From a virus: a stretch of DNA of 28,973 bases. Location of the stretch: the IMG/VR virus record IMGVR_UViG_3300013126_000175, positions 1 to 28,973 of that record; one strand, written 5' to 3'. A program made the position numbers and the translations under genes. This document shows, in pieces, positions 3,645 through 18,903 of the stretch. Below the pieces are notes generated by a model. The model was not told the origin of the DNA. It saw only the letters and a program-made list of their open reading frames with translations, and did no database searches. How positions within the stretch are numbered: the stretch's first letter is position 1; every line of letters starts with the position of its first letter.

Positions 3645-4349
3645 TTAATGCTGGTTGGTCAAATTTTCTGCGTAATAATTTCTTAAATCTTCAACAATTT
3701 CATTTCTATGATTAGAAGTTAATGTTAAAGCTTCAAGATGTTTTATTTTTTTAGAGGCAGTATACAAAAATTTAAACCCAGAATCACCTTTCTTTTTTAA
3801 GTCTATTTGATAAGTGTCACCACAAATAATCATTTTAGAACGTAAACCTAAACGGGTTACAATCATCTCCATTTGTTCATGGGTGACATTTTGTGCTTCA
3901 TCTACAATAACACATGAATCAACAAATGTTCTACCTCTCATAAAGGAAACAGGTACAATTTCTATTTTACCATCTGCTATAAGTTTTTCAACTTTTTCTT
4001 TATCAAATAGTATAAATAAATTTTGGTATATGGGTTGAACCCATGGGTCCATTTTTTCACGTAGATCTCCCGGTAAAAATCCAATTTCTTCTTTGGACAC
4101 CGTAGGTCGTGTGATTATTATTTTTTCATAAATTTTACGTAATAATCCGTCAAGAGCAACTTGACAAGCTAACAATGTCTTACCAGAACCTGCTTGACCA
4201 GCTAATAATGTTATGGTGTTATCTAATATTTTTTGTTTAGCTTCTTTTTGTTCTTCGTTTAAATTAACTCTAAATTTAATCGGATTTTTAACTACCTTTT
4301 TTTCTCTAAAAATTTCCTCAGCCTCGGGAGTGTTATTAAAATGAGTCAT
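3645..4349 (-). CDS. phoH: PhoH-like P-loop ATPase
   Basis: A 234-aa PhoH-family protein. Walker A is GQAGSGKT at residues 51-58 and Walker B is VIVDEAQN at 147-154, with the family's RPTVSKEEIGFLPGDLREKM segment at about 81-100 and MRGRTF near 138. PhoH proteins are RNA helicase/ATPase-like and very common in marine phages, where their role is uncertain (possibly RNA metabolism). Length fits the phage form that lacks extra domains. The gene lies just downstream of the capsid terminator and carries its own AATATTTAT box at 4370-4378, so it probably begins a new transcription unit that continues into the LamG and fibre genes. Identity is secure; physiological role is not. Confidence 0.95.
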   Translation of the reverse strand: MTHFNNTPEAEEIFREKKVVKNPIKFRVNLNEEQKEAKQKILDNTITLLAGQAGSGKTLLACQVALDGLLRKIYEKIIITRPTVSKEEIGFLPGDLREKMDPWVQPIYQNLFILFDKEKVEKLIADGKIEIVPVSFMRGRTFVDSCVIVDEAQNVTHEQMEMIVTRLGLRSKMIICGDTYQIDLKKKGDSGFKFLYTASKKIKHLEALTLTSNHRNEIVEDLRNYYAENLTNQH

Positions 4350-4369
4350 AGAACATAAATTTTTTGTTT

Positions 4370-4378
4370 ATAAATATT
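4370..4378 (-). promoter_or_regulatory. AATATTTAT box upstream of phoH
   Basis: Exact AATATTTAT on the coding strand, 20 bases before the phoH ATG. It lies immediately after the gp23 terminator, which is where a new promoter would be needed. Confidence 0.55.
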
Positions 4379-4380
4379 AG

Positions 4381-4410
4381 AAAAAAAGACCCGAAGCTAA
4401 GCTTCGGGTC
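4381..4410 (-). terminator. Intrinsic terminator after major capsid gene
   Basis: A perfect 10-bp stem (GACCCGAAGC with GCTTCGGGTC, 4388-4410) and a 3-base loop is followed on the minus strand by seven T (4387-4381). It sits 30 bases after the gp23 stop codon. It is GC-rich in an AT-rich region, a textbook rho-independent terminator. Confidence 0.93.
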
Positions 4411-4439
4411 CTTTCTAATTAATTTATTAACTTAATCGA

Positions 4440-6092
4440 TTAGAGGGTGTTCAAACCGTTTAAGTAAACCTTACCGTAGTATTCAGGTCTTAACATTTTC
4501 TTAGCGTATCTTGTTAAGAGACCTTTTCTTGGTGTAAAGGTTTCTGGATCATAAACAAGCGGAGTCATGATCAAAGGAATGTATGGTGAGAAGGTAGCAC
4601 CAGTTTCAAGGAACTGTGAACCTCTGTAGCCCATTAAGATTACATTCTCAGTCATGTATGGGTTCTTGTAAACCTCATATCTGTTGTTTAATTGGCCAAT
4701 TTTCTGAACACCAAACGCATACTTCATTTTAGCTGAATCACCATCTGTGTTAGCTGCGAATCCTGGGATTGATTCAAGGATTGTAGCTGCAGTTGGAGAC
4801 AATACTAAGAAGTTAGCGCCACCTCTTAAGGTCAACTGGTGAATCTTGTTACTAACTTTTTGTAGTTTAGTACCAAGAGTTTGGAACCATTGGCCTTGTG
4901 TATTGAAGAATCCACTAGATAAAGCAGCAGGGACTGAAGTAGCTGTAGCAACTGTGTTGTTAACTGCTGACCAGTACTCAACTGTTAGAGCGTTTTCAAT
5001 CAACATACCTAGGATTTCGAGGTCGATTTCCATAGAGATGTATTCACTCATGATGCTTGTCAACTCAGCTTCAGCATCAATGCTATGGTAAGCATTCAAG
5101 TCTTGAGCAAATTCAGGTGTCCAAACAGCTTTTAGCTTTCTGGTTTTAGCAACAATCGCTTCAGACTTCATCTTAACGTTGATTTCTGGGATTGAAATAC
5201 CAGTATCTGAAGTAGCATTAGGGAATGCTGAAGAAGCACCATCCTCAAAATCACCTCTAACATTATCAGCGGGTTGTTTTACATAGTTAACAACGTTTGT
5301 ATTAACATTACCAACACCGGCACTTGAAGAGATGAAGATGTAAACATTACTAGCATCAGCATAGTTGTAAGCTGGGAGTTGTTCAACAACATTAGCAGTT
5401 GAACCGCTGTAAGTAGTAACTGTGTATCCTCTAACACCTTCTAAGTCGGGGTTTGTTAAAAGAGATTGGGGGATTTTGACCTTAACAACAGCACCTGCAG
5501 CTATAGAAGCTGATAGAGCTGAGTCATATCCAACTTCTGACCAAACTGCATCAGAACCAGTAGCTCCTACAGAAGCTGAGAAGATATTGGTTGAGTATGT
5601 CCATCTACCAGCGCCATAAAGACCATCAGTTGGTGAGTTGGTTTGGTCTGTTCTACCATACATAGAACCCGCTCCAAATACATCACCACCAACTGTGAAT
5701 TTACCATCACCTTTTGTAGTTCCATATTGGAAGTCAAGGAAGAAGACTAGACCAGAAGGAAGGTTCATTGGTTGAACACTGACAAAGTCTTTTGCAGCGA
5801 TTTGACCAAATACCTTTCTTACAAGTGGAAGAGCAATACCTGCCCACTGTTCACCAGTACCAGCTGTGAAAGTAGCACCAGCAGCACCAGCACCACCACC
5901 AGTTTGGGAAGTTTCAACAACAAGTTGTTTAGCTTGGTTTTCAAGGATGAGAGCCATGTTATTTCTTTCGGTCTCAGATCCTAAACCTTCTAACAAACCT
6001 GTTTTTTCCCATTTTGAAGCTAATCTAGCAGCGTCGCTTTGAACGACTCTCCAGTTATTAGCACTTTCTAAAAGAGAGTTTAAGTTTGACAT
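4440..6092 (-). CDS. 23: Major capsid protein (gp23-like)
   Basis: A 550-aa protein with the T4-like gp23 N-terminus: SKWEKTGLLEGL near residues 27-38, NNMALILENQAKQLV near 44-58, then a Gly/Ala-rich stretch and the conserved RKVFGQIAAKDFVSVQPMN near 92-110. The C-terminus contains TPLVYDPETFTPRKGLLTRY, another gp23 hallmark. In T4 the N-terminal about 65 residues are removed by the gp21 protease; here ...QLVVE followed by TSQTGGG (near residue 60) is the most likely cut. It follows the scaffold gene by 33 bases with an A-rich leader (AATTAAAAAAACAAA) and no Shine-Dalgarno. It ends at a strong terminator. Codon choice here is less AT-biased than in neighbours, fitting high expression. Confidence 0.97.
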   Translation of the reverse strand: MSNLNSLLESANNWRVVQSDAARLASKWEKTGLLEGLGSETERNNMALILENQAKQLVVETSQTGGGAGAAGATFTAGTGEQWAGIALPLVRKVFGQIAAKDFVSVQPMNLPSGLVFFLDFQYGTTKGDGKFTVGGDVFGAGSMYGRTDQTNSPTDGLYGAGRWTYSTNIFSASVGATGSDAVWSEVGYDSALSASIAAGAVVKVKIPQSLLTNPDLEGVRGYTVTTYSGSTANVVEQLPAYNYADASNVYIFISSSAGVGNVNTNVVNYVKQPADNVRGDFEDGASSAFPNATSDTGISIPEINVKMKSEAIVAKTRKLKAVWTPEFAQDLNAYHSIDAEAELTSIMSEYISMEIDLEILGMLIENALTVEYWSAVNNTVATATSVPAALSSGFFNTQGQWFQTLGTKLQKVSNKIHQLTLRGGANFLVLSPTAATILESIPGFAANTDGDSAKMKYAFGVQKIGQLNNRYEVYKNPYMTENVILMGYRGSQFLETGATFSPYIPLIMTPLVYDPETFTPRKGLLTRYAKKMLRPEYYGKVYLNGLNTL

Positions 6093-16145: not shown

Positions 16146-17435
16146 TTAATTATTATTTAAAATATCTTCAGCTACATAAATTCCTTGAGCACCACTTACT
16201 GTAATGCCACGAGCACTCAAAGCATCACCAACAAAATGAACATTAGGGTAAGTAGTAAGTGATAAATTTTTATAATCCACAAGAGGTTCAGGAGAAAGGT
16301 ATTTTACTTCTGGCATATAAATTCCCCAATCACTCCCAAGAGTTGGGAATATTCTTTTCATATCTGAAATAAAATCCATAATGTATTTAGCAAAACCATC
16401 CATAGCATCATAAAAGTCAGTTAAATCATCCACTTGGGTAGCTGTTACTTTTCCTCCTTCTGAAGTGGTAGATGGTTTACGGGTTGGACTATAGTATAAC
16501 CCGGTTCCATTCTTTTGTAATTTTTTAACTACTTCTCGTGACCATTCAAATGGATCATCAATACCTTGAATTTCCATCAGAATACCAAAATTAGTCATAT
16601 TATTGTGGTAAGCTTCGTCCTTTTTAGCGTGACCATTATAACTATGATCTCCATATGTTTCTTCTACAGCTACATAAGCAGCATTATTATTAGTACAGAA
16701 TGAACGAAGTGATACACCTTCATTATCAAATTTTCTATACAATTTAAAATCATAACTGATGTCAATCAGTTTTTGAAAATGATGTTGTGGAGCCTCAAAT
16801 CTTACTCCAATTTGGACCGGTTTTGGTTCGTCAGGAAGGTTGTATTCTTTAGCTAATTCTTGGGCAAAATCAATACCAGATTTTCCTACAGCAAAGATAA
16901 GTTTATCATAATCTAAATGAGTGTTATGAGTAAGAACACAATTATTTTTAAAATCAATATCTTCTACCTTAGTATTCCATTCAAAATTTACACCTTTAGA
17001 TACTAAATAATCATACCAATTTTTACCAATTTCGTGGAGATAATCGGTACCTACGTGCCATACAGGGAATAAACGTAGACCAAAATAGGGTTTAATAAAG
17101 TCAGGTTCAGCTTCAGGATTTGAACATTGTACTTCTTCAGGTTTGGGATGGAAACGTTTAAAGTTAGTAATCACTTCATTAAACAGTTCCATTGCTTTAT
17201 CTTCACCACAATACTTAGACATATGTCCTCCAATAGCAGTATGATAAGTAAGTTTACCATCACTCCAGCCACCCGCTCCTAAGAAACCAGTCATTACTTC
17301 TTCAGGTTTCCTTTTATATGGATCATTACCCATATCAATAATAGTGATTAGTTCACCTGGGTAGCCATTGTCTACTAATTTAGTAGCGGCATTCACACCA
17401 GCTACTCCAGCTCCCACAATTACAATTTTATCCAT
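16146..17435 (-). CDS. FAD-dependent oxidoreductase (COG2509-like)
   Basis: A 429-aa flavoprotein. The N-terminal dinucleotide-binding loop is IVGAGVAGVNAA at residues 5-16; GGWSDGKLTYHTAIGG near 55-70 and the C-terminal VHFVGDALSARGITVSGAQG near 399-418 complete a two-domain FAD fold. The SDGKLT, IGVRFEAP and SFCTNN stretches resemble the COG2509 'FAD-dependent dehydrogenase' group, whose substrates are unknown. Such genes are uncommon in T4-like phages, so it may be an acquired metabolic gene. Its start ATG sits inside one copy of the direct repeat that flanks the GIY-YIG gene, meaning its upstream junction was altered by that insertion. An unusual feature is the absence of any other redox partner nearby. 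Confidence 0.85.
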   Translation of the reverse strand: MDKIVIVGAGVAGVNAATKLVDNGYPGELITIIDMGNDPYKRKPEEVMTGFLGAGGWSDGKLTYHTAIGGHMSKYCGEDKAMELFNEVITNFKRFHPKPEEVQCSNPEAEPDFIKPYFGLRLFPVWHVGTDYLHEIGKNWYDYLVSKGVNFEWNTKVEDIDFKNNCVLTHNTHLDYDKLIFAVGKSGIDFAQELAKEYNLPDEPKPVQIGVRFEAPQHHFQKLIDISYDFKLYRKFDNEGVSLRSFCTNNNAAYVAVEETYGDHSYNGHAKKDEAYHNNMTNFGILMEIQGIDDPFEWSREVVKKLQKNGTGLYYSPTRKPSTTSEGGKVTATQVDDLTDFYDAMDGFAKYIMDFISDMKRIFPTLGSDWGIYMPEVKYLSPEPLVDYKNLSLTTYPNVHFVGDALSARGITVSGAQGIYVAEDILNNN

Positions 17436-17455
17436 TTTGGTTTATTGTTTAATTT
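17431..17455. repeat. Direct repeat flanking GIY-YIG gene (copy at FAD gene start)
   Basis: This 25-bp block matches 18058-18082 with one mismatch (C/T at the seventh base); similarity continues raggedly through a T run into CCAA. The copies are exactly 627 bases apart. Confidence 0.85.
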
Positions 17456-18062
17456 TTTTCCAAATAAATCCACCACATTCTTTTTGTCTTCCTGTAAGGC
17501 ATGCGCTGATACCACCATTCCAAAGGTTTAATTCTATTTCAGCTTGTTTAATTTTTTCCCAAATATTTAATAAATTTCCATTCATATCATATTGACCTAC
17601 CTTTTTTCTGTTTTTTAAATTTTCCTTTCCTTTTTTGGATTCAGATATTTTTTGTTTATGTTCTTCAGTTTTAGGTTTTTTCATTTTTTGTTTTGATTCA
17701 TCTGAATATTTTTTTCCTAATTTGGCATTGCGCATTTTTTCAATAGTGTCTAAACTATGTTTGCCTCCTTTTTTATCTTTTAATCGGAAAAAAAGAGCAT
17801 TGTCCCAACCATTTTCATTTATAAATTCTTTTTTCCAAAAATATTCTTTTTCATCTAATTGCTCTAAATTACATTCTTCAAGTATTTCCATTTTATGATT
17901 CTCATAACCATATTTTTTTAAGGAATTTAAAAATTTAGGACCTACAGAATCACTATTTAATTGTTTATACATTTGATGTCTTCGTTCTATATCAACTGCT
18001 TGCCCTATATACGATTTTCCTTTAGGATTTGTGAATTTATATATTCCTGTTCTAATATCCAT
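17442..18062 (-). CDS. Free-standing GIY-YIG homing endonuclease
   Basis: A 206-aa homing endonuclease. GIY at residues 6-8 and YIG at 18-20 start the nuclease domain, with the Arg-containing DIERRHQMY at 24-32 and the metal-binding Glu likely in LDEKEYFW near 69-76. Then comes a NUMOD3-type segment (SDESKQKMKKPKTEEHKQKIS, broken; residues about 118-140) and a C-terminal NUMOD1/IENR1-like DNA-binding helix-turn-helix (VGQYDMNGNLLNIWEKIKQA near 154-173, then ISACLTGRQKECGGFIWKK). Such genes (T4 Seg type) cut intronless or intergenic targets and copy themselves. It overlaps the preceding gene by 58 bases and the direct repeat at both ends marks the inserted segment. Confidence 0.92.
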   Translation of the reverse strand: MDIRTGIYKFTNPKGKSYIGQAVDIERRHQMYKQLNSDSVGPKFLNSLKKYGYENHKMEILEECNLEQLDEKEYFWKKEFINENGWDNALFFRLKDKKGGKHSLDTIEKMRNAKLGKKYSDESKQKMKKPKTEEHKQKISESKKGKENLKNRKKVGQYDMNGNLLNIWEKIKQAEIELNLWNGGISACLTGRQKECGGFIWKKIKQ

Positions 18063-18520
18063 TCTGGTTTATTGTTTAATTTCTTCCAATCTAATTTTTT
18101 TATTTTGACTTTATCTTCAATATAAAATTTTCTATAGGATTCTATTACATCATCTGTTTTATATATCTCAGGCATACACATTGGAGGAGTTTTAAACCCA
18201 TTGTTAGGTATATTAGGTTTATTATCTCGAAGCCATTCAAGCACATCCTTTGTTTTATGTTTTTTACCATATCTTTTTTCAAATTCATTGCATATTTCTA
18301 ATCCATGTTCTACTAACCATAAATATTGAGGGAGGGATTCTTTGGTCCATTTGGTTGAAGGGTGATTTTTGTGGGCTCTTTTATATGGGGCCTCTCCACC
18401 TGTCTCCCAATGGGCTGTGCAACACATTTGAGCACTTTCAATTTGCATCTTACGGATGTGATCATCTGCTAATTCACGAGCGGCGATGATTGGATCTTCA
18501 TTAATATAGAAAATATTCAT
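18005..18520 (-). CDS. Conserved phage protein of unknown function, 3' end remodelled by insertion
   Basis: A 171-aa protein starting at ATG 18520 (an upstream TTG at 18538 is less likely). MNIFYINEDPIIAARELADDHIRKMQIESAQMCCTAH (read as residues 1-37) is the signature of a widespread phage family with the DxDPxxAAxxxxDxHxxKMxxEsaQmLxTAH pattern and later KNHPSTKW, YLWLVEHG, MPxxYK, and DxVESYRKFY. I know no proven function. The conserved part ends near LNNKPEW at about 150; the last 17 residues are encoded by the first codons of the GIY-YIG gene read in another frame, so the native C-terminus (predicted WIKL then stop, as preserved at the other repeat copy) was replaced. Confidence 0.75.
   Translation of the reverse strand: MNIFYINEDPIIAARELADDHIRKMQIESAQMCCTAHWETGGEAPYKRAHKNHPSTKWTKESLPQYLWLVEHGLEICNEFEKRYGKKHKTKDVLEWLRDNKPNIPNNGFKTPPMCMPEIYKTDDVIESYRKFYIEDKVKIKKLDWKKLNNKPEWILEQEYINSQILKENRI
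18058..18082. repeat. Direct repeat flanking GIY-YIG gene (copy in upstream gene end)
   Basis: Partner of 17431-17455. On the minus strand it encodes LNNKPEW of the upstream gene and contains the ATG of the homing endonuclease. Confidence 0.85.
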
Positions 18521-18571
18521 ACTTTTAAAAGTTAACAAATTTTATTTATTAAGCCAAACTTTTAGACTAAG

Positions 18572-18596
18572 GTGGCCCACCTTAAGGGTGGGCCAC
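18572..18596. other. Strong GC-rich hairpin without a T tract
   Basis: A perfect 10-bp inverted repeat GTGGCCCACC / GGTGGGCCAC with a 5-base loop sits in the 113-base gap between the cupin-like gene and the 18005-18520 gene. Neither strand has a following T run, so it is not a canonical terminator. A weaker stem (GACTG/CAGTC) lies just upstream on the minus strand, near 18615-18634. Confidence 0.8.
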
Positions 18597-18633
18597 AGCT
18601 CCAAATTTTAAATCTATGTCGACTGGCTATGAA

Positions 18634-18903
18634 TCAGTCTATATGTTTTGTTATTCTAATTTTTAAATTCCCAGTTCCTTTTATAACACGATGTATTCTA
18701 TGTCGAGGTATAAATATTAAAGAATTTAAGGAGAGAGGTAATTCATCATCAAATTGAAATAACCAATCAGTTTCTTCTACAGCTATAATAGTTCGATCTT
18801 CATCATCCATATGCCATATTAAATCTAACTCATCTATATCTTGAGAAAATTCTCGTATAAATGTATTTTCTTCTAAAACTTGTTCTTGGTAGAGTTTAAC
18901 CAT
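18634..18903 (-). CDS. Cupin-like conserved phage protein
   Basis: An 89-aa protein with LIWHMDDEDRTIIAVEE near 28-44, DWLFQFDDELPLSL near 46-59 and IPRHRIHRVIKGTGNLKIRI near 66-85. The pattern (W-H-x-D-x-x-DR near the start, LP near the middle, HR-x-IKG near the end) suggests a small cupin-type beta barrel with His/Glu residues placed for metal binding, and I recall relatives in marine T4-like phages. No signal peptide. An AATATTTAT sequence occurs inside this gene at 18709-18718 but encodes protein there. It ends at the region holding the strong hairpin. Confidence 0.65.
   Translation of the reverse strand: MVKLYQEQVLEENTFIREFSQDIDELDLIWHMDDEDRTIIAVEETDWLFQFDDELPLSLNSLIFIPRHRIHRVIKGTGNLKIRITKHID

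Follow-up and report, generated by a model that had tools for sequence, protein, structure and literature searches.

The closest described counterparts of the locus analysed here are the Seg enzymes of phage T4, among which SegA, SegF and SegG are GIY-YIG endonucleases encoded outside introns and between conserved genes (PMC2988022). The free-standing enzymes of T4 cleave at distances of hundreds to thousands of bp from the genes encoding them and are inherited with co-conversion tracts, and one-sided homing events with junctions at microhomology are also known (PMC2988022); the assumed route to resistance is that donor sequence replaces the cleavage sequence (PMC12724721). At the SegB locus of phage T6, the 3′ end of the endonuclease gene shares a short similarity with a neighbouring gene, namely with the 5′ end of tRNA-Tyr, permitting recombination around the endonuclease and amplification under selection (PMC13096335). 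In the literature, of which subscription papers were little covered, we found no free-standing phage endonuclease described as bracketed by a repeat of its junction.

The window, i.e., the whole 28,973-nt stretch of IMG/VR record IMGVR_UViG_3300013126_000175, belongs to a T4-related phage whose large terminase is 62% identical to that of the Flavobacterium phages 'immuto', its nearest named relatives. On the minus strand, a Pyr_excise-family gene (18520-18005; 171 aa; PF03013/phrog_624), hereafter the upstream gene, is followed by a GIY-YIG endonuclease gene (17442-18062; 206 aa) and by an FAD-dependent oxidoreductase gene (FAD; 17435-16146; phrog_12409) of the resident type, with 92% nucleotide and 97% amino acid identity to that of the related locus L083. 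The order of upstream gene, GIY-YIG endonuclease and FAD gene, given earlier in a sequence-only reading of the window, was borne out at these positions by the open reading frames and the Pfam and PHROG matches, and all three reading frames at the junction were intact. The enzyme gene resembles T4 segA, segF and segG in lying outside introns between conserved genes, and its start codon falls inside the upstream gene as in several T4 seg genes, whereas the overlap (18005-18062), where the upstream gene with its new 3′ end runs into the GIY...YIG coding region, amounts to 58 nt in comparison with the 1-24 nt reported for T4 (PMC2988022). The native WIKL end of the upstream gene has been exchanged for a tail, WILEQEYINSQILKENRI, that is read inside the endonuclease gene. 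Neither the gene list nor the Pfam and PHROG matches revealed a transposase or integrase gene at the junction. On the 5′ side of the Pyr_excise gene, the stretch 18516-18643 contains a strong GGTGGCCCACC/GGTGGGCCACC hairpin, and its counterparts, 72-75% identical, occur before FAD in insert-bearing phages (L087:5307-5422 and L003:3478-3583), which suggests a mobile terminator/leader module.

The endonuclease gave Pfam matches to the GIY-YIG domain (25.2 bits; cut-off 22.6) and, above the gathering scores, to NUMOD3 and I-HmuI_NUMOD-like, with NUMOD1 scoring below; NUMOD1 and the I-HmuI_NUMOD-like match make up the C-terminus, and the PHROG matches were homing-endonuclease families. Tyr8, Tyr18, Gly20 and Glu73 are invariant across eight related enzymes, the motif reads GIYKF...YIG, and Arg27/Arg28 are present in the window enzyme. 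By its domain, motif and Arg/Glu residues, the protein is, judged from its sequence, a member of the GIY-YIG nuclease superfamily. A search of solved structures returned no meaningful match for it, and the structure model, a poor one at a pTM of 0.37, was left out of the argument. The gene is a full-length open reading frame with its own stop codon, situated between two complete frames that need no splicing, and the site is empty in close relatives; domain, position and empty site together support the assignment of the enzyme to the free-standing, intronless, Seg-like homing type. Its C-terminus (...WKKIKQ-stop) differs from that of related junction enzymes (...WKYK-stop, immediately before FAD), and the extra codons fall within the repeat described below. 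Distant relatives of the enzyme (approximately 39% identical) lie directly 3′ of FAD in other phages (L125:5771-6424 and L112:2465-3142), so that, depending on the genome, such an enzyme adjoins FAD on one side or the other.

Unlike T4 Seg genes, the window enzyme gene lies between two copies of a junction repeat of 25-39 bp, which takes in its own last codons. The 25-bp direct repeat noticed in the sequence-only reading, with one mismatch and 627 bp between copies, was recovered where it had been placed (17429-17467 and 18056-18094, both on the minus strand). The left copy (18056-18094) forms the 3′ end of the upstream gene and provides the start codon of the endonuclease (ATGGATA), while the right copy (17429-17467) comprises the last codons and stop of the endonuclease together with the leader and start codon of FAD, and is the same as the empty L083 junction from TTAAACAATAAACC on; each copy therefore ends in the start codon of the gene that follows it. 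The copies share 85% identity over 39 nt, 25-bp windows with at most one mismatch span 17429-17455 (27 bp) on the same diagonal, and when one indel was allowed, 34 of 35 nt were aligned (TTGGAAGAAATTAAACAATAAACCAGAATGGATA versus TTGGAAAAAAATTAAACAATAAACCAAAATGGATA). They are not identical, the right copy having one extra A and the two differing by a G/A substitution. Thirty dinucleotide shuffles of the window produced no such repeat, and the only other repeats of this grade in the window were within 341-592, inside a repetitive gene (239-1123). Local alignment of the two insert flanks scored 53, whereas the best of 200 shuffles reached 37. The repeat starts at TTGGAAAAAA, which encodes the WKK codons of the endonuclease and of the upstream gene alike, after which the frames diverge; the junction is A-rich and of low complexity, so that the exact breakpoints are uncertain.

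Relatives were collected from IMG/VR by scans with the FAD and upstream proteins; the L-numbers denote loci found in these and in the further scans described below. In more than 40 of these loci, the upstream gene and FAD overlap directly with a single copy of the junction. The junction of L083, the closest of these loci, whose FAD protein is 97% identical to that of the window, reads TGGAAAAAATTAAACAATAAACCAAAATGGATAAAATTG, its upstream gene ending in WIKL-stop over the FAD start; the compact junction predicted in the sequence-only reading from removal of one repeat unit thus occurs naturally, and the search among relatives for an uninterrupted single-copy junction, called for in the same reading, succeeded. 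These empty junctions support the claim of an intergenic insertion of a homing endonuclease, while its description as recent holds only narrowly, by virtue of the closely related L083 having no insertion. Loss of the enzyme in L083 was rejected, since the upstream gene of this locus is a non-carrier allele. L083 also contains, at 4221-5045, an opposite-strand gene resembling class II aminoacyl-tRNA synthetases between FAD and the next gene, which is absent from the window.

The junction is an insertion hot spot: some half of the related loci have no insert there, and the others carry many different genes in insertions of 326 to approximately 3,560 nt, several of them with other GIY-YIG endonucleases adjoining FAD. 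The GIY-YIG/NUMOD enzymes of L006, L088, L091, L105, L106, L144, L150, L155 and L161 occupy this same junction and share the general domain plan of the window enzyme, but those aligned are only 28-37% identical to it and have no comparable repeat. Around the other inserts as a whole, no convincing repeat of this kind was found, and these inserts end with different leaders. Several further features of the hot spot were observed. Unrelated inserted genes in L090, L134, L150 and L155 start on the old FAD start codon (ATGG...), which lies within the upstream gene's end. L105 and L150 retain roughly the first 17-20 nt of FAD as a remnant, FAD itself having a new start. A AATATTTATAATAAA or ATATGTATAATATATAAC motif recurs in the first 30 nt or so of many inserts (L094, L097, L099, L123, L136 and L139) and is possibly a promoter element of these phages. 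The inserts of L006, L089, L099, L106, L120, L123 and L136 encode proteins that open with similar versions of an N-terminal MKKQ..(S/N)EEF(R/K)RMQKLAG segment and are otherwise different.

A second carrier was found in contig 3300032288_003169 (loci L162, L087 and L171), the enzyme of which is 85% identical to that of the window. A viral-contig search with the enzyme and with a two-member alignment returned L162/L087 as the sole close relative, and genome contigs returned none; the known carriers are accordingly the window and L087, both of them metagenome contigs. The L087 enzyme gene is inserted at the same base of the upstream gene, has its start codon in the same ATGG(A/G)TA context and is accompanied by a junction-like copy on both sides, and the counterpart of the tail WILEQEYINSQILKENRI is WVLEQEYINLQILEENHI. 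Downstream, in contrast to the window, a 60-aa gene lies between the right copy and FAD, an arrangement that L094, L097 and L101 show in the absence of the enzyme. Over the stretch that leads from its right copy to FAD, L087 is 95% identical to L094 and L101, whereas its left copy (AAATAATATACCATTATGGGTA) is different; 5 of the last 22 nt distinguish the two copies, of which the right one alone matches the empty site of the relatives. Since the right copy of the window likewise equals L083 from TTAAAC onward, the right copy is the local junction in both carriers and the left copy is of another origin.

Comparison of the flanks revealed that the upstream gene itself is a composite. Its first 178 nt (18343-18520, minus strand) are of the resident type, 95% identical to L083, while the following block (18084-18342, minus strand), which we term foreign and to which the left copy belongs, is only 72% identical to L083 and groups with L087. 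Along the locus, identity between the window and L083 is 92% before the gene; within the gene it falls from 95% (nt 0-178) to 72% (nt 178-436; Fisher p = 1e-11), and it is 92% again in FAD. An equivalent drop, from 92% over nt 0-178 to 70% over nt 178-436, was found in the upstream gene between L087 and L111 (Fisher p = 2e-9). In the tree of the 5′ part, the window joined L083 (100/95) and L087 joined L111, L101, L112 and L097 (97/95), whereas in that of the 3′ part the window joined L087 (97/98). With the recoded site removed from the 3′ part, the window and L087 still held together (91/93) and the pairing of the window with L083 was rejected (p-AU 0.028); the pairing of the window with L087 in the 5′ part (p-AU 0.097) and that with L083 in the full 3′ part (p-AU 0.080) were not firmly rejected. 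In the 3′ part, 11 rare bases are common to the two carriers, whereas none of 2506 non-carrier pairs of similar divergence has more than 5 in common.

Five of these 11 bases lie in codons 63-67 and turn S(I/V)xxYxW into SLPQYLW. The recoded segment, codons 62-68 (18317-18337, minus strand), is the predicted cleavage/recognition region; ESLPQYLW is present in the foreign blocks of both carriers, and S(I/V)xxYxW in every non-carrier examined, with SIQHYRW as the resident-type form. When 2.9 million IMG/VR viral contigs were scanned with two back-translated patterns of the carrier motif, the only upstream gene beyond the window to contain it was that of L087; L172 and L173, considered as carrier alleles lacking the enzyme, were rejected, the matches being situated in unrelated proteins. 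The foreign blocks of the two carriers are 76% identical to each other and the enzyme genes 87% at the nucleotide level, so that they do not stem from a recent transfer between these two carrier lineages. Outside the foreign block and the enzyme gene, each carrier matches its own lineage, and the sequence tracts in both are consistent with co-conversion of the flanks.

Taken together, these comparisons make it probable that a Seg-like GIY-YIG enzyme cuts the upstream gene and is spread through one-sided co-conversion, the 3′ end of its own gene containing a junction copy. The left switch (nt 131-185) coincides with the recoded codons, from which we infer a cut at this place, approximately 260-280 nt from the insertion; as with the T4 Seg enzymes, a neighbouring gene would be cut hundreds of bp or more away and co-converted, but the putative target, a Pyr_excise-family gene, is absent among the T4 targets listed in PMC2988022. 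The enzyme would cut non-carrier phages near codons 62-68, and the changed codons would protect carriers from their own enzyme. Repair from the carrier would then carry over what remains of the upstream gene together with the endonuclease gene, with one exchange close to the cut on the left and the other within the repeat on the right. The repeat itself may, in the simplest case, have arisen once, at the founding insertion, by joining at a short similarity, TTGGAAAAAA, which the C-terminal WKK codons of the enzyme have in common with the upstream gene; this would have regenerated the last 35 nt or so of the junction behind the insert. The arrangement being shared by both carriers, it is older than their separation.

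That the present insertion itself created the repeat, through a staggered break or in a reaction resembling transposition, agrees with the presence of two junction copies around one gene and a single copy in relatives, but we regard such a target-site duplication as very unlikely, because it would not yield copies of different origin. The copies in the window differ by the extra A and the G/A substitution and those of L087 at several positions, only the right copy of L087 fits the empty site of its relatives, and the upstream gene has been altered over 260 nt as well. Moreover, GIY-YIG enzymes leave 2-nt 3′ extensions (PMC2988022), as against the stagger of 25-35 bp that would be needed, and the junction has neither the identical repeats nor the transposase by which a transposon with target-site duplication is recognized. 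Between the two origins offered in the sequence-only reading, the target-length duplication was accordingly left without support, the same repeat being present in the distant L087 with copies of differing origin in both phages and some 260 nt of the upstream gene co-transferred, and the repaired junction came nearer to the account preferred here.

The repeat might also have been kept or made mainly to give the gene behind each copy, endonuclease or FAD, the same A-rich leader and ATG, with the exchange tracts being incidental. Each copy does have the start codon of the following gene at its end, other inserts (L155, L090, L134 and L150) likewise reuse the old FAD start, and free-standing endonuclease genes of T4 often overlap the upstream gene (PMC2988022); nevertheless, the other inserts at this junction manage without a repeat, so that duplication is unnecessary for this purpose, and the foreign block is left unexplained, making this explanation unlikely. 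An artefact in which an L083-like contig was joined during assembly to an enzyme-bearing strain, with one join in the repeat and another in a conserved part of the upstream gene, would account for exchange points in conserved or repeated sequence, and both carriers are indeed metagenome contigs. However, the exchange interval and the right-hand exchange recur in two separate metagenome records, each of which continues into local downstream sequence of its own, and all three reading frames are intact, so that we consider a chimera very unlikely.

Within the co-conversion account, the repeat would persist by providing a ready start site for the endonuclease, by restoring the start of the next gene and by supplying right-hand homology even where the downstream gene differs. 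Any recipient that has this junction would match it over approximately 20-25 nt, irrespective of the downstream gene, and such portable homology would explain why one cassette occurs next to differing downstream genes in the two carriers. We propose, tentatively and as the less probable part of the account, that the repeat is a working part, the junction copy in the last codons of the enzyme serving as a portable right-hand homology arm. If it does, the enzyme could home into genomes with a differing downstream gene, and precise excision or amplification by recombination between the copies would be possible. The similarity permitting recombination at the T6 SegB locus is the nearest parallel, although here the similarity brackets the enzyme gene and we saw no tandem copies.

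As free-standing homing endonucleases cut at a distance from their own position, homology on the far side is needed for the enzyme gene to be copied in. The natural variants at this locus reveal both exchange points, the likely cut region and a short far-side repeat, and hence bear on how such enzymes may reach genomes with different neighbours.
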